NCBI RefSeq assembly: GCF_026210795.1
Contig: NC_089442.1
Location: 248,001 to 312,000 of the forward strand
Direction: 5' to 3'
DNA length: 64,000 bases
Source: Rhizophagus irregularis
Lineage: Eukaryota; Glomeromycota; Glomeromycetes; Glomerales; Glomeraceae
Shown: positions 5,834 to 53,100 of the stretch, in pieces
Layout of the letters: each line of letters opens with the position of its first letter
How positions within the stretch are numbered: position 1 is the first letter of the stretch
Notes under the pieces: model-generated
What the model was told of the DNA's origin: nothing
What the model saw: the letters and a program-made list of their open reading frames with translations, nothing else
The model's database searches: none
Program-made: the position numbers and the translations under genes

Positions 5834-8800
5834 ATGGCGTCCCAAAATAATATTAAGTGTAAAAATTGTAGTGATTTTTATACAAATATAAAACACAAGT
5901 GGTGTAAACCATGTCAAATAAATAAAGTAAATAGTCTTAAAAATAATATTGCAAATTCGACTAGTGGAAATGAAAAAATTGATTATTTCATTCAAGAAGC
6001 ACAATTAAAATTTGAAAGTTATAAGGATACAATAGTTGAATGGATACCATATAATCAATTTAGTGATATTAAAGAAATAAGTAAAGGTAATTTTGCCACA
6101 GTATATTCGGCAATATGGAATGACGGTCCATTACAACATGATGAACATTATGAAGAGTTGAGGAGAACATCTAATAAAGAAGTTATTTTAAAACGTTTAT
6201 ATAACCTACAAAATATCATCAATGATTTATTATATGAGGTTTGAAATTTCTAATTCCTTTGTAATTTTATTTAAATACTTAAATTATAATATTTTTTATA
6301 TTTAATAGGCTAGAGTATATTCTATTGAAAAAAGAAAATATGCCTATCTCAAAATATATGGAATATCTCAAAATCCTGATACAAAAGATTATATTTTAGT
6401 TTTTAATGATGGTTACTGTCTAAACTGTGGTAAAATCGTATATACATATAAATGGTGTAGATCATGTCAAATAAATAACTTGAAGAATCGGTTTGAAAAC
6501 TGGACTAGTGGAAATGAAAAAATTGATAGATTTATTCAAAAAATGCAATTAATGATTAGTTATTATGATGATATAATAGTCGAGTGGATACCATATGGCC
6601 AGTTTAATAATATTAAGGAAATAAGTAAAAGTGATTTTACTGCAATATATTCAGCAAAATGGAAAGATGGACTATTACAATTTGATAAGAATTGTAGAGA
6701 ATTAAAAAGAGAACTTAATAAAGAAGTTGCCTTAAAATATTTTTATAGCTCACAAAATATCAATGATTTTTTATTTGAGGTATGGGATTTCTAAATTTTA
6801 TAATTAACATTTAAGTACTTTTTATTAAAATAACCGTTTTTATGTTATATTTTAACAGATTAAATCATATTCCATTAATAAATTTTCCACTATTCCGTGG
6901 ATATATGGAATATCCAAAAATCCTGATACAAAAGATTATATTGTAGTCCTTAGTAATGACTATTGTGAAAATTGTAGTGAATTATATACAGATATATATT
7001 ATAAATGGTGCAAACCATGTTTACTAAATAATTTGAGAATTAATTTTAATTTTACAAGCTGGACTAGTGGAAATGAAAAAATTGATGAACTTATTCAAGA
7101 AATGCAACTTAAAATTAATAAATGGAATGATATAATAGTTGAATGGGTACCATATAATCAATTTAATGATGTCAAAGAAATAAGTAAAAGTAATTTTGCT
7201 GCAGTATATTTAGCAGTATGGAAAGATGGTCCATTACAACGTGATGAACATAATGAAGAGTTGAAAAGAACACCCAATAAAGAAATTGCATTAAAATGTT
7301 TATATAATTCTCAAAGTTTTACTAATGATGAATTTTTAAAAGAGGTATGGATTTTTAATTAATTTGTTATTTAATTTAAGTATTTTATTTGTTATAATAA
7401 TTTTTATATCTTAACAGGTTAAATCATATTCTATTGAAGTCAATTCATATAATAGGATTCTTAATATGTATGGAATATCTCAAAATCCAAATACAAAAGA
7501 TTATATTATAGTTCTTGATAATGCTTATTGTGAAAACTGTAGTGAAGTATATACAAATATAAGAGAAAAATGGTGTAAAACATGTCAATTAAATAATTTC
7601 AAAAAATACTTTTCACATGAAATCAGCAGAAATGAAAAAATTGATGATTTTATTCAAGAAATGCAGTTTGAAATAAATAAATGGAATGACATAATAATTG
7701 AATGGATACCATATAATCAATTTATTAATATTAAAGAAATAGGTGAAATTGGGTTTACTACAATATATTCGGCAATATGGAAAAATGGTCCATTACAGCA
7801 TGATAAGCATTATGGGATATTGAAAAGGATATCTGATAAAAAAGTTACTTTAAGATGTTTACATAATTCACAAAAGATTACAAATGAATTTCTAAATGAG
7901 GTAAAAGTTATTTCTTAAAATTAAGTATTTTTTCAATGTAGTAATTTTTTTTTTATTATTTAACAGGTTGTTAAAGAATTCTCTATTGTAAAGGAAGAAT
8001 CATCTCTTCCTAACTTATTTGGAATATCTCAAAATCCGGATACACAAGATTATATTATAGTAGTTGATAATGATCGTTGTGAAACTTGTAACAAAATATA
8101 TACAGTTATATGTCGTAAATGGTGCAATCCATGTGTATTAAATAATTTAAGAAAAGCATTCGTAAATTGGACCAGTGGAAATGAAATAATTGATAATTTC
8201 ATTCAAGAAATGCAATTAAAAATTAATAATTGTAATGACCTAATAGTTGAATGGATACCATATAATCAATTTAATAATATTAAAGAAATAATCAAAAATG
8301 ATTCTTTTGCAGTATATACTGCAAGTAGTAACCAAGTTTTTAGTAACGTTTTATTAAAAAAATTTTTTAATTCACAGAATATTACTAATGAATTTTTAAA
8401 TGAGGTATGAATTTATTTTTTTTAAAATTTAATTAAATTTTTTTTTTATAATAATTTTTCTCATATCTTAATAGATTAAATCATACTCCATTCATATGTT
8501 TGATAGTATTCCTATAATATGTGGAATATCTCAAAATCCAGATACAAAGGATTACATTATAGTATTTCAAAATGGTTGCTGTAAAAAATGTGGTAAAACA
8601 TATACTGTTACAAATATAGGGTGTAAACCATGCCAAATAAATAGTTTAAAACAAAATTTTGCAAACTGGACTAGTGGAAATAAAGAAATTGATGAGTTAA
8701 TTAAGGAAATACAATTAGAAGGTGGTAATTATGGTGATACAATAGTTGAATGGATATCATATAATCAATTTAATAATATTAAAAAAATAAGTAATAAAGA

Positions 8801-9499
8801 TGCCTCAAATATAAGATACTCAGCAATATGGATGGAAGGTCCATTACATTATGGTTATGAGTTTGAAAGGTTACTATCTTATAAAAAAGTTGTCCTAAAA
8901 TATTTATGTAATTCACAAGATGTTAACAATGAATTTTTAAATGAGGTATGAATTCATTTTTTTTTGGATTTAATCAAATACTTAGCTAATATATAATTTT
9001 TTAATTTTAATAGATTAAAACTTATTCCATTAATAATAATGGTAAGGAAAATCCTAATTTATATGGAATATCTCAATATCCAGCAGATACAAAGGATTAT
9101 ATTATAGTACTCCAAGATAGTTATTGTAAAAATTGTGGTAAATTATATACAGAACTACATTATGAATGGTGCAAACCATGCCAAATAAATAATTTAAAAC
9201 AAAATTTTGCAATCTGGACCAGTGGAAATAAAGAAGTTGATAATTTAATTCAAGGAATGCAATTAAAAATTGATCATTATGATGATATAATAGTTGAATG
9301 GATACCATATAATCAATTTACTGATATTAAAAAAATAGGAAAAGGTGGTTTTGCTACCATATATTCAGCAATATGGGAAGATGGTCCATTAGTAAATGAT
9401 TATGGACATGATGGAAAGTTGAAAAGAATACCTAATAAAGAAGTTGCTTTAAAGTGTTTAGATAATTCACAAAATATCAATAATGAATTTTTAAATGAG
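5834..9499 (+). repeat. Sevenfold tandem exon array in kinase gene A
   Basis: Seven homologous exons of 405, 471, 486, 483, 438, 471 and 486 bp, all multiples of three, are separated by introns of 66-79 bp. Donors are mostly GTATGA/GTATGG after a GAG codon, and acceptors precede an ATTAAA or GTTAAA-like start. Loop sequences by module: SKGNFATVY, SKSDFTAIY, SKSNFAAVY, GEIGFTTIY, IKNDSFAVY, SNKDASNIRY, GKGGFATIY. The four ribbon cysteines are present in all seven. The beta3 Lys is kept except in module 4 (Arg). Confidence 0.9.
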
Positions 9500-10741
9500 G
9501 TATGAATTCCTTTTTTTTTTTGAATTTAACTAAATATTTTTTAATATATACTTTTTTTGTATCCTTAATAGATCAAAGAGTATTCTATTAAGTGTCGTGA
9601 TGTAATTCTTAATTTATATGGAATATCACAGAATCCAGTTACAAAAGATTATATTATGGTTCTTGATTATGCAGATGGTGGAAATATTAATAATTATAGT
9701 TATATTAATATAAATTGGTATTGGTTTGAAAAATTAAACGTATTAAATTATATTATTTTAGGTCTTAAAAAAATTCATGAAAATAAAATGGTTCATCGTG
9801 ATTTTCATACAGGAAATATATTATTATCTTTAATGGCTACTGATGAAAGATCTGGAAATGTATTTAGTAGAACATATATTTCAGATATGGGATTATGTGG
9901 AGAAGTTGGAAATATAGATAATAAAAAAATTTATGGAGTTATGCCTTATGTAGCCCCAGAAGTATTAAGAGGTAAACCTTACACTCAAACAGCAGATATA
10001 TACAGTTTTGGTATGATTATGTATTTTATAGCAACCAAAAAACAACCTTTTGCAAATTGTGCTCATGATAAAATATTAGCATTAAATATATGTAATGGAA
10101 TTAGACCTGAGATAAATGAAAAAGAAGTTCCAAAATGTTATATTGATTTAATGAAAAGGTGTTGGGATTCAGACCAATATAATAGACCAAGTGCTATTGA
10201 AGTACATGAATTGATTGAATTATTTTGTAATTCTTGCAGTTATAGAATGGGAGCTAATAAAGATAAGGAAATTGAAAAGCAATTTAAAGAAGCAGAAGAA
10301 TATAGAAAAGCAAATTATTTATCTATAGGAAATAGTCAATTAACTAATCACCATCCACAAGCTTATTATACTTCTCGATTGCTTAATCCATTTACCAAAG
10401 ATCTTCCAAAATATGACGATATTAATAATAAAAATTCAGTAAATATCGTCGATTCTATGGAGTACGTTAAATCTATTTTTATATATTTTTTTATATGAAA
10501 AATTTATTAAGTATTATTTATTTTGTAGGGTATCAACAGAAGATGAAAGTCTTAATCCATTTACCAAAGACCTTTCAAAGTATGACAATATTAATAATAA
10601 TTCAGTAGAAATCTTCGATTTTACGAAGTATGTTAAATCTATTTTTGTTTATTTTTTATATGAACATTTATTAAGTATTATTTATTTTGTAGGATATCAA
10701 CAGAAGATGAAAGTAAAAATAAACAATCAGAAGAAAAATAA
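5834..10741 (+). CDS. Kinase gene A: seven tandem zinc-ribbon/kinase N-lobe modules plus one catalytic C-lobe
   Basis: Predicted exons: 5834-6238, 6309-6779, 6859-7344, 7418-7900, 7967-8404, 8475-8945, 9014-9499, 9572-10461, 10529-10627, 10693-10741; 1425 aa. Exons 2-7 each encode a beta4-beta5 segment (YGISQNPDTKDY-like), a CxxC-x(9-11)-CxxC ribbon, a TSGN linker, and glycine loop to alphaC, ending FLNE-like. Exon 1 lacks the first part. Exon 7 supplies the intact loop GKGGFATIY (1027-1035) and VALK Lys1065. Exon 8 supplies HRDFHTGN (1155-1162), DMG (Asp1185) and APE (1208-1210). Modules 1-6 have eroded loops. Introns 1-7 are all phase 0. The ATG at 5834 was chosen because gene B has the matching start. 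The protein resembles Glomeromycotina TKL-like kinases; substrates are unknown. Alternative splicing of module exons is possible. Confidence 0.82.
10382..10719 (+). repeat. Tandem duplication of the tail exon and intron of gene A (period 169 bp)
   Basis: The segment from CTTAATCCATTTACCAAAGA at 10382 through the following intron recurs from 10551. It creates the extra 99-bp exon 9, which gene B lacks. Both introns use strong donors (GTACGT, GTATGT) and a TTTTGTAG acceptor, and both keep the same phase. Confidence 0.85.
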
Positions 10742-26313: not shown

Positions 26314-27953
26314 TTAATTAGTTTCATCTATAATAAAAATAGTTTAATTAAAATTTAATAGATCAAAAAAATCACATGCAAGAGTAATCAATCACCTTTT
26401 GAATTAATATCAAGTTTAGTAAAATCCATTTTTAAGGAATCTATAAATATTAATTGTTAGCATTTTAAAATAAATTTATATTATTATAGCATGTTATATA
26501 TATACCTGAATATTCTATCCCATGTAAATCATCATTATCATCAGCATTTTTTGGTTCTGGAAGATTTTTAAAATCTAAAAGTTTACTTGTATAAACTGCT
26601 TGAGGATGTGTCACATATGATATACTAGTATCACTAGATATTAAAGGTGATGAAAAAGATAACTTTTTATTAATTTCATCTGTTTCTTTAGCTTGTCCAT
26701 AAATTACAGACTCCGCTTTATTATTTTGCATAGCTTTCCATAAATCACGAATTATATTAAATAATTCATTTGCATTAGGTCGTTTTAAAGGGTCTGCATC
26801 CCAACATTGATTAATAATGTCAAGAATTAATTGAGGAATTTTATAATTTGACTTTGGTCTCAATCCATTACAAATTTTCATTGCTAAGAATTCATCATGA
26901 GCTATATCATGATAAGGAGGGAACCCTGTACAAATTTCATATGCAATAATTCCATATCCATAAATATCACTTGCTTGAGTATATTCTTTTCCTCTTAAAA
27001 CTTCAGGAGCTACATAAGGTAATACTCCATATATTTTTTTATTACTATTTTGAGAGGATTTGACATTTGCTGGTTGACATAATCCCAAATCAGTAATGAA
27101 AGCCTGATGGATATTATTGCTTAATATATTCCCACAATGAAAATCTTGATGAATTAATCCTTTATTATGAATATCTTTAAGACCGGTTGCAATACTATGT
27201 AAAGTAAACAACATATTCTCCCAACTCATCAAAATGAAGCTGTTATTTAAACGTTGTCTTAAACTATAATCTTTTAATTCCATCACCATCATAAAATCGT
27301 TTGTTTTTGGATCTTTGGTAATCCCAAAACAACGAACTGTATAACCAGAACTATGTACTAAAATATTTGATTCAACCTTAAAAGAAAATTATAGTTAGTT
27401 TAACATTTATAAAGGCTAATAATACTAAAATCAGTAAAAAAGATCTTACTTCTTTTAAAAAATCTGCTGTAATATCTTGTGAATTATGTAAGCACTTTAA
27501 AGCGACTTTTGTTTTACTATCTCGTTTCCATTGATCATTTTCATAATCCCAATCTTCAATACATCCATCTTTCCAAACTGCTTTAAAAGTAGTTCCAAAT
27601 CCCCCTTTTGCTAAATATTCAACATTTTCAAATTTATCATATTCAATCCACTCTATGATATTGTCCTCATCTTTAGCTTTTAATTGTGCTTTTTGAATAA
27701 ATTCATCAACGACATGATTTTCACTTGTCCAATTTTTGAAATTTGGTTGAAACACACAATAATTGCAATAATACCTATTTATCCTAAGCCGATTACAATT
27801 TCTACATAAACCATTTTTTTTATAACGTTCTTTTAATTCTTTGTCTGTTATTAGTTTATCAATTAACGATTTTTGTTTTTCAGTCAATTTCCGATACTTA
27901 TCAAAGTCTTTTATTTGTTCAAATACATCATCACTTAGTTTAATTTGATCCAT
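26314..27953 (-). CDS. Kinase C: single-module zinc-ribbon TKL-like kinase, about 477 aa
   Basis: Predicted exons on the minus strand: 27953-27450, 27376-26506, 26440-26396, 26327-26314. The N-terminus MDQIKLSDDVFEQIKDF is shared with F and, with Glu3, D. A Cys4 ribbon lies at C50, C53, C63 and C66, a WTSEN linker follows, and the glycine loop is AKGGFGTTF (115-123). Other motifs are beta3 Lys153, catalytic HQDFHCGN (Asp246), DLG (Asp264), APE and an HPQAVYTSRLLDF tail. HRD is changed to HQD, so it is a non-RD kinase. The first intron falls directly after FLKE in alphaC, phase 0, exactly as in genes A and B. A 45-bp micro-exon is conserved in D and F. All exons are open; it is probably active. 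The substrate is unknown. Confidence 0.88.
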
Positions 27954-30877: not shown

Positions 30878-33800
30878 ATGGTGTCATTCCAAAATGATAT
30901 TAAGTGTAAAAACTGTGATGAAATATATACGAATATAAAACATAAATGGTGTAAACCATGTCAAATAAATAAAGTAAATAGTTTTAAAAATAATGTTTCA
31001 AATTTTTCAAATTGTAATAGTGAAAATGAAAAAATTAATTATTTCATTCAAGAAACTCAATTAACATTTGAAAGATATGATGATATAATAATTGAATGGA
31101 TACCATATAGTCAATTTAATAATATCAAAGAAATAAATAAAAGTAATTTTTCTGCAGTATATTCGGCAATATGGAAAGATGGTCCATTACAACATGATGA
31201 ACATTATGAAGAGTTGAGGAGAGTATCTAATAAACAAGTTATTTTAAAATGTTTATATAATTTTCAAAATATCATTAATGATTTATTATATGAGGTATGA
31301 AATTTTTTTAATTTCTTTATAATTTTTATTTAAATACTTTTTCTTATAATAAATTTTATTTTTTATATTTATTATAATATAGGCTAAATTATATTCTATT
31401 GAAAGGAAACAAAAATATGATTATCTTAAAATATATGGAATATCTCAAAATCCAGATACAAAAGATTATATTTTAGTTTTTAATGATGGTTATTGTTTAA
31501 ACTGTGGTGAAATATATACAGATGAAGATAATAAATGGTGTAAACCATGTCAATTAAATAATTTAAAAAATCATTTTGATAATTGGACTAGTGAAAATGA
31601 AAAAATCGATGAATTTATTCAAAAAATGCAATTAAAAATCAAATATCATAATGATATAATAATTGAATGGATACCATACAACCAACTTCATGATATCAAA
31701 GAAATAAGTAAAAATGATTTTACTGCAGTATATTTAGCGATATGGAAAGATGGCCCATTACAATATAATAAGAATTATGGAGAGTTGAAAAGAGAACATG
31801 GCAAAGAAATTGCCATAAAATATTTTTATAATTCTAATTCACAAAATATCAATGATTTTTTATTCGAGGTATGAAATTTCTTATTTTTTTTATAATTAAA
31901 TTTCAAGTACTTTTTTTTATAATAACCTTACCTTTTCTATATTATATTTTAACAGATTAAATCATATTCTATTGAAATAAATAATTACTATAATAATATT
32001 CTTAATATATATGGGATATCTCAAAATCCAGATACAAAAGATTATATTGTAGTTCTTAATAATGGTTATTGTGAAAATTGTAGTGTGATATATACAAAAA
32101 TATATTATAAATGGTGCAAATCATGTTTATTAAATAATTTAAAAATAAATTTTACAAGCTGGACTAGTGGAAATGAAAAAATTGACGAACTTATTCAAGA
32201 AATGCAACTTAAAATTAATAAATGGAATGATATAATAGTTGAATGGATACCATATAACCAGTTTAATGATATTAAAGAAATAAGCAGAAATGATTTTACT
32301 GTACTTTATTCAGCAATATGGAAAGATGGTCCATTACAACATAATAATGATGAACGTAATGGAGAGTTGAAAAGAATTCCTGATAAAGGGGTTGCTTTAA
32401 AATGTTTATGTAATTCACAAGGTCTTATTAATAATGAATTTTTAAGTGAGGTATGAATTGTCTAATTACTTTGTAATTTAATTTAAGTATGCTTTATTTA
32501 ATAATTTTTTTTTATATTTTAAAGATTAAATCATATTCTATTGAAATTGCTAAAGACGATAATATTCCTGGTATAATACATGGAATGACTCAAAAACGAG
32601 ATGAAAATATTCTTAATATATATGGAATATCTCAAAATCCAAATACAAAAGATTATATTATAGTTCTTAATAATGGATATTGTGAAAAATGTGGAGAAAT
32701 ATATACAAATATAAAGAAAAAATGGTGTAAAACGTGTCAATTAAATAATTTCAAAAAATATTTTTCATATGGAACTAGTACAAATGAAAAAATTGGTAAT
32801 TTCATCCAAGAAATGCAACTTAAAATAAATAAATGGGATGATATAATAGTTGAATGGATACCATATAACCAGCTTAATAATATTAAAGAAATGGGTAATA
32901 TTGGTTATACCACAATATATTCAGCAATATGGAAAGATGGTCCATTACAAATTGATAAACATTATGGAATATTGAAAAGAATATCTGATAAAAAAATTAC
33001 TTTAAGATATTTACATAATTCACGAAATATTACAGATAATTTTTTAAATGAGGTAAAAGTTTTTTTTCTTAAAATTATTTATTTTTTTTCAATATAGTAA
33101 TTTTTTCTTTATTTAAGTAGGTTGTTAAAGAATTCTTTATTGAAAAAGGTCGATCTCCTAACATATTTGGGATATCTCAAAATCCAGGTACAAAAGATTA
33201 CATTATAGTTCTTAATAATAATTATTGTGAAAATTGTAATAAAATTTATACACATAAAAGTTATAAATGGTGTAAACAGTGTCAATTGAATAATTTAAGA
33301 AAAAGTTTTATAAATTGGACCAGTGGTAATGAAAAAATTGATGATTTTATTCAAGAAATACAATTAAAAATTAAAGAATATGATGATATAATATTTGAAT
33401 GGATACCATACAATCAATTTAATGATATTAAAGAAATAAATAAAAATGATACTTTTGCAATATATTCAGCAATATGGATAAGAGGTCCATTAAAGTATAA
33501 TAGATTTTATAATAAGTTGTTAAGACATTCACATTTTAAAAAAGTTTCATTGAAATATTTTTATAATTTACAGAATATTATTGATGAGGTATGAATTTAA
33601 ACTTTTTTTAATTTTTTTTTTAATTATTTTTATATAATATTTTATTTTATTCCTTTATAGATTAAATCATATTCCATCAATACATTTAATGGTATTCAGA
33701 AAATATATGGAATATCTCAAAATTCAGATACAAAAGATTATATTATAATATTTCAAGATGGTCGTTGTGAAAATTGTGGTGAAATACGTACAGGTAATTA

Positions 33801-34707
33801 TAAATGGTGTAAACCATGTCAAATAAATAATTTAAAACAAAATTTTGTAAACTGGACTAGTAAAAATAAGGAAATTGATGAATTAATTCAGAAAATGCAA
33901 TTAAAAATTGATAAACATAATAATATAACTGAATGGATATCATACAATCAATTTTATAATATTAAAAAGATAAGTGAAGATAGTTTAACTATAATATATT
34001 TAGCAATATGGATGGAAGGTCCATTACATTATAATAAGAATTATGAAGAGTTAATAAGAATACCTAATGAAAAAGTTGCTTTAAAATATTTATGTAATTC
34101 ACAAGATATTAACAATGATTTTTTAAATGAGGTATGAATTTATTATTATTATTTTTTTTTTAATTTAATTAAATGCTTAATTAATATATAATTAATATAT
34201 AATTAATATATAATTCTTTATTATTAGATTAGAAAATATTCTAATAGTAATGATAAAGAAACTCTTGATTTGTATGGAATATCTCAAAATCCAGATACAA
34301 AAGATTATATTATAGTAATTCAAGATGGTTATTGTAAAAACTGTAGTAAAATATATACAAGTATAAAGAAAAAATGGTGTAAACCATGTCAAATAAATAA
34401 TTTAAAACAAAATTTTACAAACTGGACCAGTGGAAATAAAGAAATTGATAATTTAATTCAAGAAATGCAATTAAAGATTAATAAATATAATGATATAATA
34501 GTTGAATGGATACCATATAATCAATTTAATAATATTAAAGAAATAGGTAAAGGTGGTTTTGCTATAGTATATTCAGCAATATGGAAAGATGGTCCATTAT
34601 ATTATGATGATAAATATTATAAAGAATTAAAAAGAATACCTAATAAGAAAGTTGCTTTGAAATGTTTAAATAATTCACAAAATATTAATAATGAATTTTT
34701 AAATGAG
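30878..34707 (+). repeat. Sevenfold tandem exon array in kinase gene B
   Basis: Exons of 417, 486, 495, 528, 468, 471 and 480 bp, all phase 0, with introns of 68-96 bp. Ribbon cysteines are intact in all seven. The beta3 Lys is Arg only in module 4 (ITLRYL), as in gene A. Intron 6 contains a small tandem of ATTAATATATA near 34180-34212. Confidence 0.9.
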
Positions 34708-35755
34708 GTATGAATTCATTTTTAACCATGTTTTATCTTATTATCTTTTTAAATTTGACAAAATGTACATTATTTATTTTTATCAGATTAAAGAGTATTC
34801 TATCAGTTATAATGATAGAATTATTAGTTTATATGGAATATCACAAAATCCAGATACAAAAGATTATGTTATGGTTCTTAATTATGCAGATGGCGGTACT
34901 ATTAATAATTTTATTTATATTAATATAGATTGGTATTGGTTTGAAAGATTATGGGTATTGAATAATATTATTGAAGGTCTTAAAAACATTCATAAAAATA
35001 ATATGGTTCATCGTGATTTTCATACAGGAAATATATTATCACTTACTCGTGGATATTATTCTAAATCAGGAAATTCGGCTAGTGATGTATATATTTCAGA
35101 TATGGGATTATGTGGAGAAGTTGGTAATATAGATGGAAATAAAATTTATGGAGTTATGCCTTATGTAGCTCCTGAAGTATTAAAAGGCAAACCCTACACT
35201 CAAGCAGCAGATATATACAGTTTTGGTATGATTATGTATTTTGTAGCAACTAAAAGACAACCTTTCGCAAATTATGCTCATGATAATATATTAGCATTAA
35301 ATATATGTAATGGAAATAGACCTAAAATCAATGAAAATGAAGCTCCAAAATGTTATATTGATTTAATGAAAAGGTGTTGGGATTCAAATCCAAATAATAG
35401 GCCAAGTGCTATTGAAGTAGGTGAATTCATTAGATTATTCCGATCTAGAAAAAATGAGGAAATTGAAAAGCAATTTATCGAAGCAGAAGAATATAGAAAA
35501 ACAAATCTTTTATCTGTAGAAAATATCCAATCAACTACTCATCATCCACAAGCTTACTATACTTCTCGATTACTCAATTCATATACCAAAGATCTTTCAA
35601 AATATGATAATATCAACAATAATTCAGTAGAAATTGTTGATTTTACAATGTATGTTACATCTTTTTTTTTTATTTTTTTTATATATATATAAAAGATTTT
35701 TTAAGATTATCTATTTTATAGGATATCAGCTGATGATGAGGATAAGTATAAATAA
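30878..35755 (+). CDS. Kinase gene B: paralogue of gene A with seven tandem zinc-ribbon/N-lobe modules
   Basis: Predicted exons: 30878-31294, 31383-31868, 31956-32450, 32525-33052, 33121-33588, 33661-34131, 34228-34707, 34787-35649, 35722-35755; 1413 aa. The plan is the same as gene A: each of exons 1-7 carries a Cys4 ribbon and a glycine-loop-to-alphaC segment. Only module 7 has a canonical loop (GKGGFAIVY). Exon 8 supplies HRDFHTGN (1190-1197), DMG (Asp1220) and APE. Every module matches its counterpart in A by position. Exon 4 is longer, with an extra 20-odd residues (HGMTQKRDEN region). The extra tail exon of A is absent. The Met at 30878 aligns with the start in A; an in-frame ATG at 30833 would add 15 mostly Lys/Phe residues. 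All frames are open. Confidence 0.82.
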
Positions 35756-42122: not shown

Positions 42123-43765
42123 TTAATTACTTTCATCTATAATAAAATAAATAATTCAATTTAATTAAAATCTAATAGATCAAAAAAATCACATGTAAAA
42201 AGTAATTACCTTTAGAATTAAGATCAAGTTTAGTAAAATCCATTTTTAAAGAATCTATAAATATTAGTTGTTAGCATCATAAAAAATTTATGTCATTATA
42301 GAAAAGTATATAGTATGTTTACCTGAATATTCTAAATCATCATTTTTGTCAGCATTTTTAGGTTCTGGAAGATTTTTAAAATCTAAAAGTCTACTCGTGT
42401 AAACTGCTTGAGGATGTGTTATATATGATATAGCACCAGTAGTTATTAAAGGTGATGAAAAAGATAACCTTTTATTGATATCATCTGCTTCTCTAATTTG
42501 CTCATAAATTACAGAATCCTCTTTATTTTCCTTAATAGCATCCCATAAATCCCAAATAGACTCATCTAATTTACGTACATCAGGTCGTTTTAAAGGGTCA
42601 GCATCCCAACATTGATTAATAATGTCAAGAATTAATTGAGGAATTTTATAATTTGACTTTGGCCTCAACCCTTTACAAATTTTCACTGCTAAGAATTCAT
42701 CATGAGCTATATCATGATAAGGAGGGAACCCTGTACAAATTTCGTATGCAATGATTCCATATCCATAAATATCACTTGCTTCTGTATATTTTTTTCCTCT
42801 TAAAACTTCTGGTGCCACATAAGGTAATACTCCATATATTTTTTTATTACTATTTTGAGGAGATTTGACATTTGCTGGTTGACATAATCCCAAATCAGTA
42901 ATAAAAGTATTTCCGTCAAAATTGCTTAATATATTTCCACAATGAAAATCATGATGAATAAGTCCATTATAATGAATATCTTTAAGACCAATTGAAATAT
43001 TAATTAAACTATTTAACTTTTGCCTCCAATTCAATGAAATGAAGTTGTTATTTAAATGTTGTCTTATACTACCATTTTTTAATTCCATCACCATCATAAA
43101 ATTATTTGTTTTTGGATCTTTAGTAATACCAAAACAACGAACTATGAAACTACTACCTTTAAATACTAAAATATTTAATTCAACCTTAAAAGAAAATTAT
43201 AGTTAGTTTAACATTTATGAAGGCTAATGAAGATTCATAAGAAAATATCTTACTTCTTTAAAAAATCTGCTGTAATATCTTGTGAATTATGTAAGCACTT
43301 TAAAGCGACTTTTGTTTTACCTATTCTTTCCAAGTGCAATTTTTTATTTTTAGAAGTCAATCCCCAAGGACCATCTTTCCAAACTGCTTTAAAAGTAGTT
43401 CCAAATCCCCCTTTTGCTAAATATTCAACATTTTCAAATTTATCATATTCAATCCACTCTATGATATTGTCCTCATCTTTAGCTTTTAATTGTGCTTTTT
43501 GAATAAATTCATCAACGACATGATTTCCACTCGTCCAATTTTTGAAATTTTGTTGAAAATGATTAGAAACACATGGATGACAATAATAAGAACTAGTATT
43601 AAACTGCTTACAAATTTTACATAAACCATTATATTCATAACGTTCTTTTAATTTTTTGTCTGTTATTAGTTTATCAATTAACGATTTTTGTTCTTCAGTC
43701 AAATTACAATGTTTGAAGTCTTTTATTTGTTCAAACACATCATCACTTAATTTAATTTCATCCAT
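42123..43765 (-). pseudogene. Kinase D: single-module zinc-ribbon kinase with a 1-bp frameshift in alphaC
   Basis: Exons corresponding to kinase C: 43765-43254, 43184-42323, 42254-42210, 42136-42123. All domains are present: the Cys4 ribbon, AKGGFGTTF loop, VALK lysine, catalytic HHDFHCGN (HRD changed to HHD), DLG, APE and the HPQAVYTSRLLDF tail. At the end of exon 1, minus-strand TTAAAGAAGTAAG has one A fewer than the C gene (TTAAAAGAAGTAAG). The exon 1 and exon 2 frames therefore no longer match through the usual splice. Everything else is intact, so this is either a very young pseudogene or a base missed in a homopolymer. The ATG at 43765 aligns with C and F. Confidence 0.75.
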
Positions 43766-46741: not shown

Positions 46742-48611
46742 ATGGATACTTCAAAACAAAATTCAGATACAATTAAAACTGATGTTAAAAATTTATGGAT
46801 AGACCGCAGCAGAAATAGTGAATATCAGGTAAAAATATTATTACATAATAAACAATATAAATTTTTATTAAAATTTTTTAACCATTTATTTTGATAGTCC
46901 CACGCTACAATTTTTTCAACTGATGCAACTACTGAATCAGTTGAAATTATTGCCATTTTTAAAAAAGTAAATATTATGGATTTAGAAAAAAGAAAAGAAT
47001 TATACGGAGTATGTGGAGAATGTAATGAACCAGGTACAGGATTATATTGGTGTCAACCTTGTAATGCTAAAAGATTAAAGGAAAATTTTAAAAATTGGAC
47101 TAGTGGTAATAAAAATATTGATGAATTAATACAACAATCACAACTTAATGCTTTTATTTACATAAAATGTCTTGAATGGATACCTTTTGAAAAATTTGAA
47201 AATGTTACCTATCTTACCAGAGGTGGTTTTAGTAAAATTTATTTGGCTGACTGGCCCGAAGGAAAGATTGAACATTGGGATATTGAAAATCAAGAATGGG
47301 TACGAGTTTCAAGAAAAGTTGCATTGAAAAGTTTAAATAATTCATCTAATATAAGTAATGATTTTTTAAATGAGGTAATTAAAATAAATATTACTTATTA
47401 ATATTTGTATTTTAATACATAATTTATTAACAAAATTTCTCTTTTTAATGATTTTAGATTAATTATTATATTTCAGGTCATGTTCATGCTACTAATACTG
47501 TTATGTGTTTTGGAATTACTCAAGATCCAAATACTAAAGATTATATGATGGTTTTAGAATATTGTGACGGAGGAAATTTGAGAAATACTTTAAGGAAAGG
47601 TTTTGATTATAATATCAAAATGAAATTTTTATTTTGTATTATAGATGGACTTTTAGGTATTCATGATGCTGGAAATATTCATAAAGATTTTCATTCGGGA
47701 AATATATTACATGATAATCATTATGATTTACTAACAATTAGTGATTTGGGAATGTGTCAACCAGTAAACGATAATGAGCGAAAAGGAATTTATGGAGTAA
47801 TACCTTATATGGCACCCGAAGTTTTACGTGGATATCAATATACAAAAGCAGCTGATATTTACTCATTTGGAATAATAATGAATGAACTTATGTCAGAAGA
47901 AATTCCTTATAATGATATTCCTCATGATCAATTTCTGGTTGTTAAAATATGTAAAGGATTTAGACCAAAAATTTCTGAAGATACACCAAAATTAATTATA
48001 GATTTGATTATTAAATGTTGGAATGCTAAAGCAGAAAATAGACCAACTGCTAAAGAATTACGTCAAATATTGGAAAAATATTTAGTTGACGTTTATGATG
48101 ATGGTAGCGAAATTTCTTCTCAAATAAAAGAATGTGAAAAAATTAAAGAGAATAAATCAAAAAACAGAACAAATGAAAATAAATCTAAAAATCTTCAAAC
48201 ACATCCACAAGCAATTTATACTAGCAGACTTTTAAATTTTGAAAATCTTCCAGAACCAGTTAATTCAACCGATTATTTATCTTCATATCAAGGTAAATAT
48301 ACTGTACCGTCTGTACGTTTAAAAAACTAATATTTGAAAATATAATTTATTGATTTTTTTATTTTTTTAATAGAAAATGTTTCATCATCATCAGCAAATC
48401 CAAGTAAGTATATATTTGCATTATTAAAGATTATTGTGATTATTATAATAATGTTTATTTTCATTTTATTAATAGTTTCTGAATGTTTGGATTGTGAATT
48501 AAATGAATTAGGTAAGACATCCGTTTTATAATTATATGAAATTATTAATTTAATTTAATTATTATTATTATTATTTTTAAAATAGATCTCAATCAAGACG
48601 ATGATGAATAA
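46742..48611 (+). CDS. Kinase E: single-module zinc-ribbon TKL-like kinase, about 496 aa
   Basis: Predicted exons: 46742-46828, 46898-47374, 47458-48292, 48374-48403, 48476-48511, 48586-48611. A short N-terminal exon precedes the Cys4 ribbon (C68, C71, C81, C84), the WTSGN linker, the loop TRGGFSKIY and VALK. Exon 3 carries NIHKDFHSGN (H263, K264, D265), DLG (Asp284), APE and the HPQAIYTSRLLNF tail with NLPEPVNS. HRD is replaced by HKD. The split after FLNE in alphaC, phase 0, is conserved with A-D and F. Three micro-exons of 30, 36 and 26 bp close the gene, giving a Ser- and acid-rich end. An ATG at 46976 is an alternative start. All exons are in frame. Confidence 0.83.
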
Positions 48612-51474: not shown

Positions 51475-53100
51475 ATGGATCAAATTAAACTAAGTGATGA
51501 TGTATTTGAACAAATAAAAGACTTCAATAATTATTATTTGACTGGAGAACAACTATCGTTAATTGATAAACTAATAACAGACAAAAAATTAAAAAACCGT
51601 TATAGAAACTATGGTTTATGTAAAGATTGTATGCAGCCTAGAACTGGTGCTTTATATTGTCGGTCATGTGTTTCTAATCATTTTCAACAAAATTTCAAAA
51701 ATTGGACAAGTGGAAATCATGACGTTGATGAATTTATTCAAAAAGTACAATTAAACGCTAAAAATAATAACCAAATTATAGAGTGGATTGAATATGATAA
51801 ATTTGAAGATGTTGAATATTTAGCAAAAGGGGATTTGGAACTACTTTTAAAGCAGTTTGGAAAGATGGTCCTTGGGGAATAAATTTTGACAATAAACAAT
51901 GGGAACGAAAAGTTGATACAAAAGTCGCTTTAAAGTGCTTAAATAACTCACAAGATATTACAGCAGATTTTTTAAAAGAAGTAAATTATTTTCTTATAAA
52001 TCTTCATTAGCCTTCATAAATGAAACTAACTATAATTTTCTTTAAAGGTTGAATCAAATATTTTAGTATATAGTTCTGCGTTCATAGTTCGTTGTTTTGG
52101 TATTACCAAAGATCCAAAAACAGAGAATTTTATGATGGTAATGGAATTAAAAAATGGCAGTTTAAGACAACATTTAAATAACAACTTCATTTCACTGAAT
52201 TGGAAGCAAAAGCTGAGAAGTTTAACTGATATTACAACTGGTCTTGTAGATATTCATGATAAAGGATTAATTCATCAGGATTTTCATTGTGGGAATATAT
52301 TAAGTGATTCCGCGCATCGAGCTTTTGTTACTGACTTGGGATTGTGTCAACCAGCAAATGTCAAATCCTCTCAAAATAGTAATAAAAAAATATATGGAGT
52401 ATTACCTTATGTAGCTCCTGAAGTTTTAAGAGGAAAAGAATATACTCAAGCAGGTGATATTTATGGATATGGAATTATTGCATATGAAATATGTACAGGT
52501 TTCCCTCCTTATTATGATGTAGCTCATGATGAATTCTTAACAATGAAAATTTGTAATGGATTGAGGCCAAAGTTTAATTATAAAATTCCTCAATTAATTT
52601 TTGACATTATTAATAAATGTTGGGATGCTGACCCTTTAAAACGACCTGATATAAATGAATTGTTTAAGTCATTCAGGGGTTTAGAGGATGATATTGATAA
52701 ACTGGATTCTGTGATTTATGAGCAAGTTAAGGAAACAGATGATATTAATAAAAAGTTATATTTTTCATCACCTTTAAAATCTACTGGTACTATATCATAT
52801 ATGACACATCCTCAGGCAGTTTACACAAGTAGACTTTTAGATTTTAAAAATCTTCCAGAACCAAAAAATGCTGATAATAATGATGATTTACATGGAATAG
52901 AATATTCAGGTATATATATAACGTGCTAATATTTTAAATTTATTCTGAAATGCTAACAACTAATATTTATAGATTCCTTAAAAATGGATTTTACTAAACT
53001 AGATATTAATTCTAAAGGTGATTGACTACTTTTGCATGTGATTTTTTTAATCTATTGAATTTTAATTAAACTATTTTTTATTATAGATGAAACTAATTAA
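51475..53100 (+). pseudogene. Kinase F: single-module zinc-ribbon kinase with a 1-bp frameshift in the glycine loop
   Basis: Exons corresponding to kinase C: 51475-51980, 52048-52909, 52973-53017, 53087-53100. The start MDQIKLSDDVFEQIKDF, Cys4 ribbon (GLCKDCMQPRTGALYCRSC) and WTSGN linker are intact. The loop AKGGFGTTF is broken because the G-run at 51829-51832 has four G instead of the five in kinase C; the frame then runs to TAA at 51880-51882. Past that point the other frame restores WKDGPWG and VALKCL, and later exons are perfect (HQDFHCGN, DLG, APE, HPQAVYTSRLLDF). It is either a recent pseudogene or a homopolymer sequencing error. Confidence 0.78.

Follow-up and report, generated by a model that had tools for sequence, protein, structure and literature searches.

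Introduction

The protein kinase fold is usually viewed as consisting of two lobes. The window analysed here, a 64,000-nt stretch of Rhizophagus irregularis DNA, contains a gene that a preliminary description had read as serial kinase N-lobes ending in one C-lobe. This raises the question of whether the small lobe is indeed repeated without the large one, and what the surplus lobes might do. The reading favoured here, with modest confidence, is that arrays of zinc-ribbon pseudo-N-lobe docking beads precede a single active TKL-like kinase.

Architecture of gene A

The gene A model runs on the forward strand from an ATG at 5834 to a stop codon ending at 10741, and its ten exons encode 1425 aa with no internal stop. 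The introns are all GT-AG and 65–79 nt long. Exons 1–7 have lengths divisible by 3, join at phase 0 and carry one ribbon/N-lobe module each, consisting of a Cys4 ribbon followed by a kinase N-lobe up to alphaC. Exon 1 (5834–6238) contains the start codon, ribbon 1, the linker and N-lobe 1 from beta1 to alphaC. Each of exons 2–7 opens with beta4-beta5 of the preceding lobe and continues into its own ribbon and N-lobe: exon 2 (6309–6779), exon 3 (6859–7344), exon 4 (7418–7900), where the beta3 Lys of N-lobe 4 is replaced by Arg, exon 5 (7967–8404), with a shortened N-lobe 5, exon 6 (8475–8945) and exon 7 (9014–9499), whose terminal N-lobe 7 retains intact IGKGGFATIY and VALK motifs. Exon 8 (9572–10461) comprises beta4-beta5 of lobe 7, the hinge, the only C-lobe of the gene (HRDFHTGN, DMG and APE) and a tail. 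A further tail exon, exon 9 (10529–10627), repeats the last part of exon 8 in diverged form, and the final tail exon, exon 10 (10693–10741), ends in TAA. The terminal unit carries the Gly loop, the VAxK lysine, HxD with its downstream N, the D of DxG and APE. Modules 1–6 are homologous to module 7, at 52–62% identity.

The serial N-lobe, single C-lobe architecture is well supported at the gene level, both by this model and by an intron position that matches an ordinary kinase (below). Two details of the preliminary description need adjusting. Seven exons were said to repeat one unit, and seven phase-0 ribbon/N-lobe modules are present, but the full unit occurs in only six exons because exon 1 lacks beta4-beta5. 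The TSGN linker, claimed for every unit, is found in 6/7 modules, with module 4 reading ISRN.

A paralogue and an ordinary kinase in the same window

Gene B (30878–35755, forward strand) is a colinear paralogue of gene A with seven modules, one C-lobe and 1413 aa. Its exons 1–5 lie at 30878–31294, 31383–31868, 31956–32450, 32525–33052 and 33121–33588, and its exons 6–9 at 33661–34131, 34228–34707, 34787–35649 and 35722–35755. The same strand also carries an ordinary single-ribbon kinase at 46976–48150, where 48150 marks the end of the C-lobe match rather than of the gene. In this comparator, a ribbon/N-lobe exon (46976–47374) is separated by a phase-0 intron from a C-lobe exon starting at 47458. 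The alphaC/beta4 intron occupies the homologous codon and phase (GAG|GT..AG|) in the comparator and wherever one module of A or B borders the next. Each internal exon is therefore a fusion, in which the opening part of a C-lobe exon runs straight into a ribbon/N-lobe exon. Searches of the 64,000-nt window with Rfam (gathering threshold) and ARAGORN gave no match.

A gene family across the host genome

The serial N-lobe layout is not confined to gene A but recurs in gene B and in many more genes of the host genome. Two genome searches recovered at least 197 hybrid beta4-beta5/ribbon exons, in at least 81 clusters on at least 21 of 32 contigs, making this a large and partly clustered family. Thirty-seven multi-module chains were read, with 3–12 modules detected in each; the counts for L002, L004 +, L010, L022 and L033 are minima, owing to larger gaps inside these arrays. 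The chain terminates in a C-lobe in 33 of the 37, two of which (L010 and L031) are split between frames. Array C-lobes matched in one piece retain H-x-D in 25/25, DMG in 24/25 and APE in 23/25. No C-lobe lies upstream of any module in the 37 chains, nor does a module follow a C-lobe on its strand in the loci retrieved; since chain building itself broke chains after C-lobes, this result rests on the raw listings and on a lax scan of seven larger gaps, in which no C-lobe signal inside an array was better than E 1.9. Damage is seen in four family members, L010, L013, L028 and L031.

The preliminary description named as counter-evidence modules that belong to several genes, each starting and stopping independently. 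A related alternative is a tandem set of small genes for ribbon proteins ahead of a single kinase gene. The DNA does not show such a separation: 160/168 internal modules share an open frame with beta4-beta5 of the previous lobe, and a loose scan located phase-0 donors for 158/168 internal modules and phase-0 acceptors for 147 of 160 scannable ones. An arrangement of separate genes is thus exceedingly improbable, and the exons of gene A would instead be spliced into one mRNA.

Identity of the kinase lobes and zinc ribbons

Exon 8 of gene A alone matches PF00069 (100.5 bits) and PF07714 (87.6 bits) above the curated cut-offs. None of the 14 module exons of A and B on its own gives a kinase Pfam match above cut-off; below it, PF07714 is matched by exons 7 of A and B only (E 0.15 and 0.064). 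Joining a terminal module to the C-lobe exon raises the PF07714 score by 24–28 bits over the exon alone; for upstream modules (A modules 1, 3 and 6 and B module 3) the gain is 9–19 bits. The match then extends from the N-lobe start for A modules 1 and 3 and B module 3, and only from profile position 29 for A module 6.

The two CxxC knuckles of a zinc ribbon are present in nearly all upstream modules, which are predicted to bind zinc. No curated ribbon family was matched above cut-off. The NOB1 Zn-ribbon profile (PF08772) gave weak matches, with 6/14 members at E<=1, a best E of 0.0014 and listed scores of 16.4, 18.0 and 19.1 bits against a cut-off of 24.9. AlphaFold2 modelling of one internal exon (gene B exon 3) predicted strands at low confidence (mean pLDDT 51.9), and a Foldseek search with this low-confidence model returned no match at E<=0.001. 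A PDB sequence search gave three non-significant matches (best E 0.24). Pattern matches in viral contigs and in prokaryote genomes yielded no confirmed relative.

Loss of the ATP pocket in upstream modules

A feature absent from the preliminary description distinguishes the upstream lobes, which, judging from their motifs, have specifically lost the ATP pocket. In a first count, for which 43/168 upstream rows were dropped for a gap at the loop or Lys column, the glycine-loop GGG was present in 25/27 terminal modules and 2/125 upstream modules. Module 4 of L004 + was then reassigned to the terminal class because its C-lobe, seen in L034, comes directly after the end of the stretch read first; with this change a GxGG loop is found in 26/28 terminal and 1/124 upstream modules. 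Six further genes show an intact loop in 5/6 terminal and 0/23 upstream modules, a count that leaves out L034, the truncated L028, loop-gapped modules (two of L032, one GG-) and the L033 fragments. The terminal modules without GGG are those of L013, L017 and L032. The truncated L028 has NDG and NGN in its two upstream loops.

Five of the 126 profile columns are at least 90% conserved in terminal modules and below 50% upstream: the three loop Gly, the loop Phe and the VALK Ala. Upstream, the Ala of VAxK is kept in 33/159 modules, and the GxGG loop and VAxK Ala expected of an ATP-binding lobe are generally missing. The beta3 Lys is retained in 141/159, and some nucleotide contact may therefore persist there. 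The framework is otherwise preserved. Among upstream modules with letters at each position, Cys1–4 are found in 158/158, 159/161, 160/166 and 166/167, respectively. The ribbon and linker are as well kept upstream as in the terminal module, and the N-lobe is for the most part almost as well kept. Conservation is somewhat lower upstream in beta2 (0.72 versus 0.82), beta3 (0.62 versus 0.84) and alphaC (0.67 versus 0.77).

Module position is also inherited. With ATP columns excluded, 25/27 terminal modules have their nearest match in a terminal module from a different gene, against a shuffle mean of 4.1 and maximum of 12. Nearest-neighbour counts were used in place of a module tree because terminal modules form no single clean clade in it (best pure clade 8/27); modules of fewer than 100 residues were left out of both.

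These observations bear on whether the modules are an alternative-splicing cassette, in which symmetric exons would be included or skipped so that one gene yields kinases with one to seven ribbons. Exons 1–7 end and exons 2–7 begin at phase 0, so any skip among exons 2–7 keeps the frame, and the N-lobe-start matches of A modules 1 and 3 and B module 3 with the C-lobe exon point the same way. However, the upstream ATP loop is lost in almost every gene, and skipping exon 7 is therefore expected to give dead kinases, while position-specific inheritance across many genes needs no skipping. Exon choice is accordingly unlikely as the main explanation, and it is compatible with docking beads as an addition to them.

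Frame and selection

The degenerate and varied upstream ATP loops could alternatively mark the modules as a decaying by-product of tandem duplication, functionless exons left by kinase genes whose C-lobes were deleted. The broken members L013 and L028 fit such decay, as do the introns of A and B, which are about as similar as the exons (69–85% identity over aligned bases, with no clear contrast). In exons 6 and 8, the A versus B pN/pS interval reaches 1. Against decay, the 918 codons of gene A exons 1–6 contain zero stops, whereas 1000 runs simulating neutral change in a simple way, at 0.15 random draws per site, gave a mean of 23 and a minimum of 10. Exons 1–7 of A and B differ in length by multiples of 3 throughout (12, 15, 9, 45, 30, 0 and -6), while only one of the seven intron differences is such a multiple (18, 8, 1, 2, 2, 28 and 7). 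The Cys4 set is retained in nearly all modules, and middle modules equal terminal ones in constraint: pooled dN/dS for nearest between-gene pairs is 0.49 in middle modules (0.45–0.52, 90 pairs) and 0.49 in terminal modules (0.41–0.59, 20 pairs). First modules give 0.47 (0.35–0.73, 11 pairs), with dN/dS not below 1 in 4/11 pairs, and pairs between unlike module positions give 0.61. Modules under 100 residues and pairs with pS outside 0.02–0.6 are excluded from this set, and values near 0.5 indicate moderate constraint only. The frame, indel, selection and family evidence together disfavour pseudogene debris, which is very improbable, as they do separate genes.

The selection data also weigh on the possibility that the pseudo-N-lobe arrays are decoys, baiting kinase-attacking or kinase-binding proteins of microbes, the plant host or non-self hyphae, with the terminal kinase acting as the alarm. 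A large, partly clustered family with 3–12 modules per gene would suit this role, which has likewise been put forward for plant tandem kinase-pseudokinases (PMC6170490). A pooled dN/dS of 0.49 shows no sign of diversifying selection, as far as pooled values tell, and the modules mostly hold their position rather than being freely exchanged. We regard a decoy or sensor function as quite unlikely.

A model for the arrays and their origin

The docking-bead reading would account for these features as follows. Gene A would produce one long protein with seven beads, each consisting of a Cys4 zinc ribbon, a helical TSGN linker and a kinase N-lobe, each upstream lobe being completed by the beta4-beta5 that opens the next exon. 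The last bead, continuous with the sole C-lobe, would form one TKL-like kinase, probably active. The upstream beads would be pseudo-N-lobes that retain the framework after the nucleotide pocket has gone, and most likely serve as non-catalytic docking units. As a multivalent array, they may use ribbon and linker to bind partner proteins, which they would then present to the terminal kinase.

We put at about even the chance of a more general proposition, that an N-lobe without a C-lobe, capped by a zinc ribbon, is a tandem repeat module, used as 2–11 non-catalytic beads per protein, with the ribbon and linker that follow it shielding the surface which would otherwise face a C-lobe.

Such arrays may have originated when a hinge-to-ribbon fusion created the hybrid exon, most simply through a deletion between adjacent single-ribbon kinase genes. 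Recombination in phase-0 introns could then have multiplied it.

Relation to known systems

TKL kinases are reported as expanded in R. irregularis (PMC4219462, citing Tisserant 2013), and a figure of 2,533 kinase genes is given for this fungus (PMC10234402). With the ordinary TKL kinase, represented by the copy in the window, the arrays share the ribbon, TSGN linker, N-lobe, HxDFHxGN C-lobe and phase-0 alphaC/beta4 intron. The ordinary type has one ribbon and one N-lobe per C-lobe, whereas the arrays have 3–12 N-lobes, the upstream ones without the ATP loop.

In plant tandem kinase-pseudokinases (Yr15/WTK1, Sr62), as portrayed in PMC6170490 and PMC8956640, a single chain contains a duplicated kinase fold, of which one unit is often degenerate, and many arose by duplication. 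Duplication within one chain and degenerate units are common to both systems, but the plant proteins described there repeat entire kinase domains, with two in each protein for the genes that are named, and the arrays repeat only the N-lobe and zinc ribbon. Classification as a plant-type tandem kinase-pseudokinase was rejected: two complete kinase domains are not found, and in none of the 37 chains is a module preceded by a C-lobe. In JAK-type pairs, a kinase-fold unit without catalytic function precedes an active kinase, an order that the arrays would share; unlike in the arrays, that unit is a full pseudokinase domain in single copy, with no ribbon. The array ribbons show weak profile matches, below the cut-off, to C4 zinc ribbons such as NOB1 (PF08772), a family not known to carry an attached kinase lobe. 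A literature search covering titles and the beginnings of abstracts found, among the matches listed, no family with serial N-lobes and one C-lobe.

Significance

Selection appears to have preserved many genes that repeat the small kinase lobe without the large one. The arrays thereby offer a natural experiment on whether an N-lobe can exist by itself and on its role in the absence of ATP. Part of the kinase expansion reported for R. irregularis would divide into genes with a single N-lobe and genes with many, a distinction that tallies of kinase profile matches are not expected to reveal by themselves. If the proposal is true, the N-lobe bead repeat would constitute a new class of repeat protein, and the genes encoding it would form an expanded signalling family with many members in an arbuscular mycorrhizal fungus.

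Architecture of the array genes

Gene A occupies 5834-10741, opening with an ATG and closing with a TAA; GT-AG introns of 65-79 nt separate its ten exons, and the spliced model encodes 1425 aa free of stops. In exon 1 a Cys4 ribbon is followed by a linker containing TSGN and by the beta1-to-alphaC part of a kinase N-lobe. Each of exons 2-7 opens with beta4-beta5 (..GISQNPDTKDYIIVL..), directly followed by the ribbon, linker and N-lobe of the next module, while exon 8 has the same beta4-beta5 start and proceeds through the hinge to a C-lobe with HRDFHTGN, DMG and APE. The names given to lobes, strands and loops rest on homology to kinases in general and on what is known of their fold, not on a solved structure. 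At the 3′ end (10380-10741), a tail segment occurs as two near copies, one closing exon 8 (LNPFTKDLPKYDDINN..) and the other in exon 9 (LNPFTKDLSKYDNINN..); the gene B model has a single copy.

Gene B (30878-35755, same strand) encodes 1413 aa with seven modules and one C-lobe. The closest B match of each A module is the same-numbered one (65-77% identity, versus 47-69% for differently numbered pairs). Across exons 1-7 every length difference between the genes is a multiple of three, compared with one of seven differences in introns. Individual exons have dN/dS values of 0.26-0.78; for exons 6 and 8 the bootstrap interval of pN/pS takes in 1. Aligned intron bases are 69-85% identical, and there is thus no clear exon/intron contrast between A and B.

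At least four ordinary single-ribbon kinases (about 26663, 42468, 47009 and 51616) lie beside the two arrays in the window, two of them on the minus strand (about 26663-27809 and 42468-43624). The single-ribbon kinase starting at 46976 is interrupted by an intron at the corresponding codon and in the same phase, which makes the hybrid exon look like the start of a C-lobe exon, cut just past the hinge, with a ribbon exon joined on. In the plus-strand kinase at 51616-52746, the ribbon/N-lobe match is divided over two reading frames, possibly through a frameshift, pseudogene formation or an extra intron.

A family of arrays in the host genome

The genome (146,748,485 bases, 32 contigs) was searched with two peptides spanning the beta4-beta5/ribbon seam, in which 150 out of 3402 and 150 out of 3589 candidates were scored. 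These matches comprise at least 197 distinct seam exons in at least 81 clusters on at least 21 contigs; among the matches listed, 38 clusters have one scored seam exon each and contig C14 holds at least 18 clusters. Two neighbouring C14 arrays (712679-715741 and 720314-723330) share three hit pairs with identical scores 7,589 bases apart, pointing to a probable recent tandem duplication.

Reading 33 regions and one extension yielded 37 multi-module chains (A and B among them), in which 3 to 12 modules were detected. A C-lobe ends 33 of the 37, divided between two frames in regions L010 and L031. The other four comprise C-lobe fragments in L013 and L028, none seen in L026, and one L015 chain that leaves its stretch. 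The raw listings of the arrays read contain no module downstream of a C-lobe on its strand, and no C-lobe signal was found inside the larger intra-array gaps. L004 (C2:1568000-1577000) and L015 (C12:4537000-4546000) each hold two opposite-strand arrays within 9 kb.

Loss of the ATP pocket upstream of the terminal module

An intact GxGG loop was initially counted in 25/27 terminal and 2/125 upstream modules, the latter being the subset of the 168 that has no gap in any tested column. One of the two upstream exceptions proved to be terminal once its stretch (L034) was extended, so the corrected counts are 26/28 and 1/124. Six later genes, leaving out L034 and the truncated L028, have the loop in 5/6 terminal and 0/23 upstream modules. 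The terminal modules lacking it belong to L013 (truncated), L017 (GGC) and L032 (GGR).

At five of 126 profile columns, conservation reaches 90% or more in terminal modules and stays below 50% upstream: the three loop glycines, the loop Phe and the Ala of VALK. Mean frequency of the commonest residue (upstream/terminal) is 0.47/0.88 in the Gly loop, 0.62/0.84 in beta3, 0.72/0.82 in beta2 and 0.67/0.77 in alphaC, against 0.66/0.65 in the ribbon, 0.71/0.72 in the linker, 0.77/0.79 in the beta1 region and 0.44/0.45 in the beta2-beta3 insert. The beta3 Lys is retained in 141/159 upstream modules.

The HRD Arg is replaced (HHD or HCD) in the C-lobes of L005, L014, L016, L019, L025 and L034, and nearly all array C-lobes carry DMG in place of the DFG found in most kinases; these departures may affect activity or regulation.

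Selection and inheritance by position

Over the ribbon-to-alphaC part, nearest between-gene pairs, which share members and are not independent, gave a pooled dN/dS of 0.49 both for middle modules (86 of 90 pairs below 1) and for terminal ones (all 20 pairs below 1), with 0.47 for first modules (7 of 11 pairs below 1) and 0.61 where the two positions were unlike (20 of 21 pairs below 1). With ATP columns excluded, the nearest other-gene relative of a terminal module is also terminal in 25/27 cases (mean 4.1, maximum 12 in 1000 label shuffles), and first modules are nearest to another gene's first module in 18/25 (mean 3.9, maximum 12). Modules thus tend to pass on their identity according to position, a sign that the arrays may predate many of the gene duplications.

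Proposed function

TKL kinases are described as expanded in R. irregularis (PMC4219462), with 2,533 kinase genes reported (PMC10234402), and in plant tandem kinase-pseudokinases the repeated unit is the whole kinase domain (PMC6170490, PMC8956640). Among the literature matches listed, which leave two key papers outside, none is about serial N-lobes with one C-lobe. No Pfam family scored above its cut-off for the ribbon in the scans shown. For one internal exon taken alone, as a putative free-standing lobe, structure prediction gave a low-quality model (pLDDT 51.9), and Foldseek with this model returned no match at E<=0.001.

Layout, frame, selection and upstream ATP-pocket loss are evident at the DNA level. 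In the proposed mechanism, all exons would be joined in one mRNA, the ribbons would bind zinc, and the upstream beads would serve as docking units for a terminal unit that is a putatively active kinase. The upstream units might also act as exon cassettes or as decoys, and either role could coexist with docking. A ribbon and linker that are kept, a nucleotide pocket that is lost and a position that is kept are what would be expected of serial non-catalytic binding modules placed before one enzyme.
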